A stretch of 23,661 nucleotides of DNA from a virus. The notes beneath the pieces were generated by a model. That model was not told the origin of the DNA and did no database searches. It was given only the letters and a program-made list of their open reading frames with translations. This document shows, in pieces, positions 17,901-23,661 of the stretch. Position 1 is the stretch's first letter, and each line of letters starts with the position of its first letter. Where the stretch lies: positions 1 to 23,661 of IMG/VR virus record IMGVR_UViG_3300020178_000622. One strand, 5' to 3'. The translations under genes and the position numbers were made by a program.

Positions 17901-18217
17901 ACAATAGGATTGTATCGGCTATTCCTGCTGACGAAGCCAGAGCTTCGAATGAAGCGTTAATTAAGTTTCTAAACTACAAGCAGTTGCCATTTGGTGATGA
18001 GGAGCAGTATGTGGTATCCTTTAAGCCAAGAGTAACAAAGGCGGGCAAGAAGATGGCAACTTTGACAGTTGCAGATACCAACAGAGATTTGCACTCTGTA
18101 TTGGTCTTCCCCACTACTTTTGCCAAAGCCTATATGAAGATTCAGGAGGGGAACGCATACAAGTTCTCATTCGGAAAAACAAAAGACGGAACAGTAATAT
18201 TGGAGGATATACTATGA
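14948..18217 (+). CDS. dnaE: DNA polymerase III alpha subunit, DnaE type with PHP domain
   Basis: A 1089-residue C-family replicative polymerase, near the 1160-1180 residues of bacterial DnaE. The N-terminal PHP domain (to about residue 270) keeps all the metal-ligand motifs of active DnaE1 PHP exonucleases: H7 and H9, D16, H41 (TDHGS), E66 (GVEG), a His in NHIVLL, the Cys of TSGCLSG, and Asp/His in TPDCHH. The palm carries GPGRGSSAGS and PDIDTD (D421, D423), and the third catalytic Asp is D568 in KIDALGLK. Finger motifs FQCE, YQEQVMQ and SFNKSHAVAYS are present. A C-terminal OB domain starts near LLMGMVKSI. It is the phage's own replicase. The next gene overlaps by four bases (ATGA). Confidence 0.95.
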   Translation: MAYVGLHVHTHYSLFDGIATPQEYVDRAVELGMSALAITDHGSLSGHREMYRAAREKNIKPILGVEGYITEDRFDQRDRDSREGPLDLVYNHIVLLAKNKQGLENLNKLNEIAWTEGFYKKPRIDYEVLKQYKEGIVVTSGCLSGTVAKAIESGELAAAKQQIEWHKNVFGDDYYIEVMPHNPAEINHQLLALADEFGVKPVVTPDCHHAHVGQKDIQELKLILNTYSNKIQKDATYEKSTKFETLKDRLHYLYGDRDISFDNFDIHLMSDEEMRSQMQAQGIDREDIYEHTLEIAGKVEDYDIKDNLDLLPAQYQNPDTELLSLAVDGLKERGITDSPEYLARLEEEMGIISAKKFSPYFLVVRNMINWAKKEGIQVGPGRGSSAGSLLCYALGITDIDPLKHGLLFFRFINPERNDFPDIDTDIQDTRREEVKDYLVRQYRHVASIATFLEFKDKGVIRDIARVLHIPLTDVNKVSKLFDTWDEYCNSKSTKEFREKYPEVEKYGEQLRGRIRGTGIHAAGVVTSKTPIFKHAPMETRNSPGSGERIPVVAVDMQEAERIGLIKIDALGLKTLSVLKDALDIIQSRHGKKLDLLKIETEDSKVYEMLSSGYTKGVFQCEATPYTNLLVKMGVKNFAELAASNALVRPGAMNTIGKDYILRKHGKQNIAYHHQVMKDFTAETYGCILYQEQVMQACTELGGMTMAEADKVRKIIGKKKDAKEFDVFKDRFVEGASRFLAPNAAKDLWSDFEAHAGYSFNKSHAVAYSTLSYWTAWLKTYYPLEFMFSILKNEKDKDARTEYLIEAKRMGIPIRLPHVNDSDIDFKIEGKGIRFGLSGIKYISDNIATKFIEARPFRSYTELEEFTMKKGTGVNTRSLQALKAIGAATFEDNPRDDNQIRENLYEYLNLPEFNVTVPTQYHAFMNSVDEFEEKGSFLLMGMVKSIKRGKGWSRVEVLDKTGSVGIFDEEQTSIETGRTYILLASDNRIVSAIPADEARASNEALIKFLNYKQLPFGDEEQYVVSFKPRVTKAGKKMATLTVADTNRDLHSVLVFPTTFAKAYMKIQEGNAYKFSFGKTKDGTVILEDIL

Positions 18218-18546
18218 GCGGTGCACTGTCGTTTGACGGACATGCAAGAGAAGTACACAAGAATGCCACTGAAAAGGGATTCTGGTCTGAAAAGATTGAC
18301 GACATCTTTATTGCAAAACAATGCATGATGATTGTCTCTGAAGTCACTGAGCTGATGGAAGCCATTAGAAAGGATCAGGGCAAGGATGCTGTTGCACATG
18401 AGACTGCAGACATTCTAATTAGAACCCTAGACCTGTGGCAAGGGCTCGTAGAGCATGGCTATGCAGAGGGGTCCTTGCAGGCAGCATTTAACAATAAGAC
18501 AGAACACAACAAGTCAAGACCAGAAAGGCACGGTGTGCGATTTTGA
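18214..18546 (+). CDS. MazG-like nucleoside triphosphate pyrophosphohydrolase
   Basis: A 110-residue all-alpha NTP pyrophosphohydrolase of the MazG-like superfamily. The metal-binding pattern is visible: E43-x2-E46 in SEVTELMEA and E63-x2-D66 in HETADILIR. The C-terminus NKTEHNKSRPERHGVRF is typical of the single-domain phage and bacterial MazG-like proteins. Such enzymes hydrolyse dNTPs/NTPs to monophosphates and pyrophosphate, removing non-canonical nucleotides or altering nucleotide signals; the substrate here cannot be read from sequence. It has a good GGAGGA at 18202-18207 and overlaps the polymerase gene by four bases (ATGA), linking it to replication. Confidence 0.85.
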   Translation: MSGALSFDGHAREVHKNATEKGFWSEKIDDIFIAKQCMMIVSEVTELMEAIRKDQGKDAVAHETADILIRTLDLWQGLVEHGYAEGSLQAAFNNKTEHNKSRPERHGVRF

Positions 18547-22599: not shown

Positions 22600-22746
22600 A
22601 TGGCAAAATTGTATCAAAACGCTGCTTGGCTTCGCAAAAGATATCACGTGGATAAAAAGACTCCACAAGAGATTGCAAAAGAGTGTGGCGTTAGCGATAA
22701 AACAATTTATACACATCTAGATAAATTTGGATTAAGGAAAAGATGA
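22600..22746 (+). CDS. 48-residue helix-turn-helix protein, apparently leaderless
   Basis: A short gene that I read directly: a 48-residue product with an HTH at residues about 22-43 (PQEIAKECGVSDKTIYTHLD), of the type seen in resolvase/Hin C-terminal and small phage HTH proteins. The preceding part (YQNAAWLRKRYHVDKK) resembles the start of compact HTH units in phage regulators and HNH-associated proteins. The evidence that it is expressed is strong for its size: TTGACA-N17-TAGAAT ends six bases before the ATG, so transcription would begin at or next to the start codon. There is no Shine-Dalgarno. It could be a regulator; targets are unknown. The next gene overlaps it by four bases (ATGA). 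Confidence 0.7.
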   Translation: MAKLYQNAAWLRKRYHVDKKTPQEIAKECGVSDKTIYTHLDKFGLRKR

Positions 22747-22916
22747 GAGTAGTTAGGCACTTTATTAAAGTTGCCAAGTGGCAGTTTAAGCGGATTACCT
22801 GTAAGCATAATGTTGCAGGAGAAGCGTCATGCCCATTTACTGGGCTGACATACGTTACATGTAATAATTGTGGTAAGCGGATAGGGGCATATAGAACCAA
22901 TGAGCAGGGAAACTGA
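22743..22916 (+). CDS. 57-residue zinc-ribbon-like protein
   Basis: A short gene starting at an ATG that overlaps the preceding TGA (ATGA), with AAGGA about three to eight bases upstream. The 57-residue product has cysteines at 20, 30, 40 and 43 and a histidine at 22 (ITCKHN ... SCPF ... VTCNNCGKRIG), which could ligate one zinc ion. The N-terminus is basic (MRVVRHFIKVAKWQFKR). Its coupling to the HTH gene suggests they share the leaderless transcript. Function is unknown; a nucleic-acid-binding or accessory role would be normal for this type. Confidence 0.6.
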   Translation: MRVVRHFIKVAKWQFKRITCKHNVAGEASCPFTGLTYVTCNNCGKRIGAYRTNEQGN

Positions 22917-23175
22917 AAAAGCAATCACAGACGTAATGTCTGACATAGCAGCAATGCTAATTGAAAAGAACAGGGCTTATGGAGACTCCGCCCTTGATCC
23001 AGTAAGGGTGTTCTCGAAGCAGGACAACATCGAGCAGCTATACGTACGTATTGATGACAAGCTGTCTCGAATTAAGAGGGGTTATGAGTACCCTGGAGAT
23101 GATACAATATTTGACTTAGTCGGATACCTTGTGCTGCTGCTGGTAGCACAAGAAAGACTTAGAAATGAGCTTTGA
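22900..23175 (+). CDS. DUF1599-like (nucleotide-modification-associated domain 1) protein
   Basis: A 91-residue all-helical protein. Its pattern, EKNRAYGDSALDPVRVFSK, then YVRIDDKLSRIKRG and DDTIFDLVGYLVLLLVA, is what I know as the DUF1599 family, which comparative genomics has linked to modified-base synthesis (Nmad1) and which is helical like MazG-type pyrophosphohydrolases. The acidic and basic residues of YGDS, RIDDK and DDTIFD are plausible metal/nucleotide ligands. It overlaps the zinc-ribbon gene by 17 bases and the next gene by 11. The neighbouring IMP dehydrogenase/GMP reductase makes a role in purine nucleotide supply or modification attractive, but this is inference. Confidence 0.7.
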   Translation: MSRETEKAITDVMSDIAAMLIEKNRAYGDSALDPVRVFSKQDNIEQLYVRIDDKLSRIKRGYEYPGDDTIFDLVGYLVLLLVAQERLRNEL

Positions 23176-23416
23176 AAGATTTAGTTCTTCAGACGTTTAT
23201 ATGTTCCCACATGTAGGTGGTGGCATAGAATGTTGTGCATGCTTCTTGTCTTTAGAAGACGAGCCATTTCCTAACTTCAAGACTCCTAGAGAGGCCCTGG
23301 CCCATCTTGACAGTCACGTAGAAGCAGGGTATAATATTGGTAGAGCTAAAGAATCAATACTAAAAGACTATAAAAATTTAGATGAAGTAATAGGGCCTTA
23401 TCAGAAAGACGGGTAA
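23165..23416 (+). CDS. Small C2H2 zinc-finger-like protein
   Basis: An 83-residue protein with C23, C26, H47 and H51 (IECCACF ... EALAHLDSHVEAG) in a C-x2-C ... H-x3-H spacing like a zinc finger with a long loop. I recognise similar sequences (DVYMFPHVGGGIECC) as conserved, unassigned actinophage proteins. It overlaps the DUF1599-like gene by 11 bases and shares one base with the IMPDH/GMPR gene (TAATG). A perfect sigma70-type promoter is embedded in it at 23307-23335, coding for residues about 48-57. Confidence 0.7.
   Translation: MSFERFSSSDVYMFPHVGGGIECCACFLSLEDEPFPNFKTPREALAHLDSHVEAGYNIGRAKESILKDYKNLDEVIGPYQKDG
23307..23335 (+). promoter_or_regulatory. Perfect consensus promoter before the IMPDH/GMPR gene
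   Basis: TTGACA at 23307-23312, a 17-base spacer and TATAAT at 23330-23335 match all 12 consensus positions, inside the small zinc-finger gene. The expected start near 23342 is about 74 bases before the ATG at 23416. Confidence 0.65.
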
Positions 23417-23661
23417 TGAGAGAGTATAGCAACAAAGAGCACATCGGTTTTGACGACATACTGCTAGTGCCACAATACACAGAAACAAATAGTCGTAAGG
23501 ATATTTCCTTACATACAATGCTTGGCGGGCTGTCTATGGGCATCCCATTCTTGGCAGCACCAATGGATACAGTGTGCGAGGCTGAGATGGCAGCTGCAAT
23601 TCGCAGGCATGGTGGGTACGGGGTTATCCATAGATACATGAGTATCTATGATCAGGTCCAG
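23416..23661 (+). CDS. IMP dehydrogenase / GMP reductase family enzyme, cut by window end
   Basis: The first 82 residues of a gene that runs off the window. FDDILLVPQYTE, then GIPFLAAPMDTVCEAEMAAA and GGYGVIHRYMSI are the opening motifs of the IMPDH/GMPR TIM barrel (FDDVLLVP, P-x-x-AAMDTV, GG-x-GVIH). Enzymes of this family either oxidise IMP to XMP, the committed step to GMP, or reduce GMP to IMP. The catalytic Cys loop and any CBS domains lie beyond the window, so the two cannot be separated; HRYMS resembles the HRFMS of GMP reductases as much as the HKNMS of IMPDH. Start ATG overlaps the previous stop (TAATG), and a perfect promoter lies about 75 bases upstream. Confidence 0.88.
   Translation, partial: MREYSNKEHIGFDDILLVPQYTETNSRKDISLHTMLGGLSMGIPFLAAPMDTVCEAEMAAAIRRHGGYGVIHRYMSIYDQVQ

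Follow-up and report, generated by a model that had tools for sequence, protein, structure and literature searches.

A candidate nucleotide-supply gene pair, with an IMPDH/GMP reductase-family enzyme devoid of CBS domains, in tailed phages of presumed actinobacterial hosts

The last genes of a virus contig from IMG/VR, analysed here over its full length of 23661 bases (the window), include a small conserved gene and the beginning of a gene for an enzyme of the IMP dehydrogenase (IMPDH)/GMP reductase (GMPR) family. The reading that we prefer, and to which we give somewhat better than even chances, is that these genes form a nucleotide-supply module of an actinobacterial tailed phage, with the enzyme most likely acting as an unregulated GMP reductase. 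Overall, the nucleotide metabolism is of a type usual for phages, and two of its parts are unusual, namely a large enzyme lineage that has neither the flap nor the CBS domains and a small protein family that alternates with DUF3310.

Results

The end of the window and its continuation

Since the window is an entire contig, the IMPDH-like ORF is cut by the contig end (Table 1). The sequence past 23661 was read through contigs L002 and L003 (99% identical in the shared part of the protein) and through the relative L004, which has 67% identity across the whole enzyme. The complete protein in L002 matches PF00478 at 3.2e-90 and, over its full length, phrog_9582 'dehydrogenase' at 6.8e-90, which confirms that an IMPDH/GMPR-family ORF runs off the end of the window. 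The enzyme gene of L002 is followed by genes for a 96-aa protein, the small and large terminase subunits, NrdI and NrdE. The small subunit, a phrog_9507 protein, is so called from its position; NrdI and class Ib NrdE were matched in profile searches at 1.3e-38 and 3.8e-135, respectively. In other relatives an NrdF-like ORF comes next, recognized by eye from translations, as was a glutaredoxin/NrdH-like ORF nearby in L090. The MazG-like ORF said to lie upstream is present about 4.4 kb away, matching phrog_3301 'pyrophosphatase' at 9e-15 and PF03819 at 6e-4 (20.4 bits, below the cut-off of 22 bits). The 83-aa ORF that separates the 91-aa gene from the enzyme gene had no family match in Pfam and PHROG profile searches.

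Table 1. Features of the window discussed in the text
Feature	Coordinates	Strand	Remarks
MazG-like pyrophosphohydrolase-type protein	18214..18546	+	phrog_3301; Streptomyces phage Yaboi has its annotated MazG gene at the corresponding position
48-aa helix-turn-helix (HTH) protein	22600..22746	+	phrog_9759, 3e-12; conserved, bounds the variable slot on the left
57-aa ORF containing Cys	22743..22916	+	17-base overlap with the start of the 91-aa gene
91-aa helical protein	22900..23175	+	phrog_1485; in sister phages a DUF3310 gene takes its slot
83-aa ORF between the 91-aa gene and the enzyme gene	23165..23416	+	only in the window's near-identical contigs among the contigs compared here
IMPDH/GMP-reductase-family enzyme, first 82 codons of 344 aa	23416..23661	+	complete in L002:10001-11035

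Phage affiliation

The large terminase subunit (TerL) has 54-55% identity to that of Streptomyces phages of the Stanwilliamsviridae (Yaboi, Samisti12). Moreover, the gene order of Yaboi matches that of the window: DnaE, MazG, RecA, a Cas4-type exonuclease, RuvC, HTH, the slot and TerL. In Yaboi the slot itself holds a methyltransferase and a thymidylate kinase, and a DprA-like gene sits at the place between RuvC and HTH. None of the Stanwilliamsviridae Streptomyces phages is among the listed matches of the enzyme. In L138, L143 and L147, WhiB-like ORFs (recognized by eye) adjoin the enzyme gene, in agreement with actinobacterial hosts. These observations point to a tailed actinobacterial phage related to the Stanwilliamsviridae, its host being presumed from such likenesses.

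The enzyme is probably a GMP reductase

Alongside E. coli GuaB and GuaC, we aligned 73 full-length homologues from viruses, all distinct. Cys305, Thr307 and Glu415 (numbered as in E. coli GuaB) are kept in every sequence of this viral set, and so is the catalytic Cys loop with its Cys-x-Thr motif, which the original prediction proposed to look for past the window end. CBS (Bateman) domains, sought there as well, are absent from all 73, with at most two residues aligning across the CBS region; likewise, none has the Arg401-Tyr402 flap dyad. Lys72 of GuaB, a lysine common to GuaC, is Arg throughout the 73. In the window's group the flap falls short of the GuaB flap by about 10 residues and of the GuaC flap by 3, and the viral enzyme keeps an IMPDH-like C-terminal tail, E-S/T-x-P-H. 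The flap and the Cys loop have low confidence in the structure model, and the active site was therefore judged from the alignments.

These observed motifs can be compared with what is known of the two reactions. GMPR has no Arg-Tyr dyad and a truncated flap, and in the E. coli enzyme the Cys, Thr and Glu residues are essential (PMC2525682). By these traits, retention of Cys, Thr and Glu together with loss of the dyad and truncation of the flap favours GMP reductase, and we consider that the viral enzyme is probably of this kind. The alternative is a minimal, unregulated IMP dehydrogenase, in which a Thr-Glu relay replaces the flap and which would raise XMP, GMP and GTP for RNA, DNA or GDP-sugars. 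The closest solved structures, both by sequence and by fold, are indeed IMPDHs (about 38-41% identity to CBS-deleted structures), of the NCBIfam models it is the IMPDH equivalog TIGR01302 that scores highest (264 bits, short of the 481.5 required), and the C-terminal tail is of the IMPDH type. In addition, an ancestral IMPDH using the Thr route alone has been proposed, and an IMPDH deprived of its flap could keep slow hydrolysis via the Thr-Glu route (PMC2525682). However, the dyad is missing from each of the 73 homologues, and replacing its Arg in IMPDH slows the hydrolysis step about 1000-fold (PMC2525682). We therefore regard the IMPDH reading as possible, but clearly the less probable of the two.

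The phylogeny does not attach the viral enzymes to GuaC. In the enzyme tree, which has several long branches and an uncertain root, they form a clade of their own (support 95/93), apart from a clade in which E. coli GuaC groups with the GMPRs of phages XacN1 and Cr30 (99/96). The GMPR equivalogs also score below their cut-offs: TIGR01305 (175 bits against 492), TIGR01306 (143 against 466), NF003470 (185 against 397) and NF052358 (183 against 675). Because GuaC belongs to a separate clade and no equivalog cut-off is reached, the viral enzyme is, judged by its sequence, not a GuaC orthologue; it is a mosaic that takes no simple label.

The lineage is large, with relatives of the enzyme encoded in at least 578 viral stretches. 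In the collection searched, the relatives found in named phages all stay below 60% identity; OR847177.1, OR846961.1 and AFYI01000001.1, which are short, unannotated or Salmonella-named and look bacterial, were excluded as phage relatives. Homologues about 40-42% identical and likewise free of CBS domains occur in Halonotius and related haloarchaea (L255-L261), where the flap is also changed and the Arg-Tyr dyad is missing. Among more distant viral relatives (L131, L133, L138, L143, L152 and L167), the enzyme gene is surrounded by ORFs that by eye resemble glycosyltransferases and sugar-nucleotide enzymes. In L143 and L167, GDP-mannose dehydratase- and fucose synthase-like ORFs, also identified by eye, stand behind it. 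In these distant relatives the enzyme may serve GDP-sugar supply; this setting would fit GTP or GDP-sugar supply, as by an IMPDH, at least as well as a role as GMP reductase.

The 91-aa gene and the variable slot

Homologues of the 91-aa ORF are found in many contigs, with 56-91% identity and 34 invariant alignment columns. Substitutions fall mostly on codon position 3 (45 of 71 against L004 and 48 of 79 against L072), an excess indicating constraint at the protein level, and by these comparisons the ORF is a real conserved gene. Its product matches phrog_1485, a family without assigned function, at 8e-14. The DUF1599-type label given to it earlier did not hold: at a limit of E<=10, PF07659 matched neither the window nor L002, L003 or L004, and it matched none of 18 homologues and none of three homologues from named phages. 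Our literature search found no paper that treats DUF1599 in such phages. The predicted structure consists of three helices (mean pLDDT 69.5). Foldseek returned nothing below E 1.9 with this model; several matches to a MazG/PRA-PH fold at E 3-9 are not evidence for that fold. A profile search of PDB with the 91-aa family gave nothing significant.

The slot, bounded by the HTH gene on one side and by the terminase genes on the other, varies in content among relatives. Of 135 related phages that differ in TerL and whose slot is complete, 85 carry the 91-aa gene, 40 a DUF3310 gene and 10 neither, and not one carries both, as detected in partial genomes with one tblastn query per family. The loci were gathered partly by searches with the 91-aa gene (best 80 per scan), which biases the counts but leaves the absence of co-occurrence unaffected. 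Within the TerL-selected set alone, the 91-aa gene and DUF3310 occur 18 and 41 times, respectively, again never together. On the TerL tree, where support is SH-aLRT only, the DUF3310 label needs 8 changes, of which at least 7 are forced by well-supported branches; the alternation thus does not go back to one old split. The DUF3310 protein of the slot scores 42.9 bits against a cut-off of 24, and PF11753 (DUF3310) has no match in the window record. T7 gp1.7, which has a DUF3310 domain, phosphorylates dGMP and dTMP (PMC12846349, PMC7693777). Given the mutual exclusion observed, the kinase activity associated with this domain and the thymidylate kinase in the slot of Yaboi, we infer for the 91-aa family a role in deoxynucleotide supply that is most likely equivalent to that of DUF3310.

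Other variation is seen in the same region. In sister phages with DUF3310 in the slot (L016, L026, L032, L035, L038 and similar ones), the polymerase gene adjoins recA, with no MazG-like gene detected between them. A 212-aa ORF that by eye resembles methyltransferases and a 214-aa ORF are further inserts, found in the slot of L034, L052 and L060 and between RuvC and HTH in L016 and L022.

The pair was originally described as nearly adjacent, which is correct: one 83-aa ORF intervenes in the window, and within the group to which the window belongs, most relatives have the 91-aa gene and the enzyme gene directly overlapping. In another group the gene order is reversed and the pair is still adjacent, and a third group has the enzyme gene behind TerL, 2.6-3.6 kb from the 91-aa gene. 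Within the 135-phage set, the enzyme gene accompanies the 91-aa gene in 35 cases, DUF3310 in 3 and neither in 6. This distribution supports a shared role of the two proteins, although co-occurrence falls short of proof, given that clade structure underlies the counts and that these very genes were in part used to select the loci. The two might instead be unrelated accessory genes in a permissive insertion slot ahead of the terminase genes. The variability of the slot, the occurrence of each gene without the other and the group with the enzyme behind the terminase would agree with this. Yet adjacency persists in both gene orders, and the exclusion between the 91-aa gene and DUF3310 is strict though the slot readily takes two or more genes, so that we hold an accidental pairing to be unlikely. 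Enzyme-bearing phages had been expected to be AT-richer and turned out to be GC-richer (42.7% vs 39.3%); the difference follows clades and is uninformative.

Purine supply or a modified base

The original prediction had left a choice between purine supply and a modified base in phage DNA. Purine supply gained from the CBS-less enzyme, the gene alternating with DUF3310 and the class Ib ribonucleotide reductase (RNR). For the modified base, we searched 14 records, all possibly fragments and eight of them with lengths of 72-105 kb, for four families, PF00303, PF06508, PF01227 and PF00709 (thymidylate synthase/hydroxymethylase, QueC, FolE and PurA/PurZ), and found none of them in any record. Three records encode ThyX, which is ordinary dTMP supply. 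The genes immediately past the window end, where the original prediction proposed to look for thymidylate-synthase-like and QueC genes, are those for terminase and RNR, with no modification gene among them. These absences are not proof, as the records may be fragments and the search covered four families, and they leave the modified-base idea unsupported rather than disproved. A modified purine (7-deazaguanine, 2-aminoadenine or a new base) as the product served by these genes might be suggested by the proximity of a purine enzyme, a MazG-like protein and a small conserved protein and by the glycosyltransferase-like ORFs seen by eye near the enzyme in several relatives. We hold this to be very improbable in view of the failed DUF1599 match, the lack of all four families in records of up to 105 kb and the terminase and RNR genes next in line.

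Discussion

In the nucleotide-supply reading that we favour, the enzyme would most likely be an unregulated GMP reductase, since it has neither the CBS regulatory domain nor the Arg-Tyr flap that hydrolyses E-XMP* in IMPDH. The direction of the reaction and its substrate we infer to be GMP + NADPH → IMP + NH3. Guanine nucleotides from degraded host nucleic acid could in this way be turned into IMP and then into adenine nucleotides. The 91-aa protein would stand in for the DUF3310 protein as a small protein that handles deoxynucleoside monophosphates before DNA is made, and NrdI-E-F, encoded just after the terminase, would convert the adjusted pool into dNTP precursors. A probable guanine-recycling enzyme next to a gene that swaps with a phage nucleotide-kinase gene suggests that the two most likely supply the phage with DNA building blocks and do not make a modified base.

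If the enzyme is a GMP reductase, these phages would turn guanine into adenine precursors by means of an enzyme free of allosteric control, and they would show a route by which a GMPR may arise from IMPDH. The alternation of the 91-aa gene with DUF3310 offers a concrete, testable function for a family that has none. More tentatively, both novelties might hold at once: the actinophage GMP reductase could be a large lineage of separate origin, derived from IMPDH by loss of the dyad and the CBS domains, and the 91-aa family could be a new tiny (d)NMP-handling enzyme, perhaps a kinase, repeatedly swapped with the T7 gp1.7-type domain. Our literature search found no paper joining IMP dehydrogenase with phage auxiliary metabolic genes.

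Comparison with known systems

Among cellular enzymes, E. coli GuaC resembles the viral enzyme in its length of about 345 aa, the lack of CBS domains, the retained Cys-x-Thr and Glu, the missing Arg-Tyr dyad and the truncated flap. In contrast to GuaC, the viral enzyme belongs to a separate clade, has a still shorter flap (in the window's group), Arg in place of Lys and an IMPDH-like tail, and stays below the GMPR equivalog cut-offs. With bacterial GuaB it shares the catalytic Cys loop, the tail and the identity to CBS-deleted structures given above; unlike GuaB, it is devoid of CBS domains and of the dyad, and its flap is cut down. The IMPDH/GMPR genes of Thermus phage phiYS40, Bacillus phage G and Xanthomonas phage XacN1 belong to the same fold family, but all relatives in named phages are <60% identical, and several of them group with GuaC or sit on long branches. 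As for the small protein, its counterpart is the DUF3310 domain of T7 gp1.7: the two have no detectable homology (hhalign E 0.66, probability 0.1%) and never occur together in the phages compared, and in sister phages DUF3310 occupies the very slot that the 91-aa gene holds in the window.
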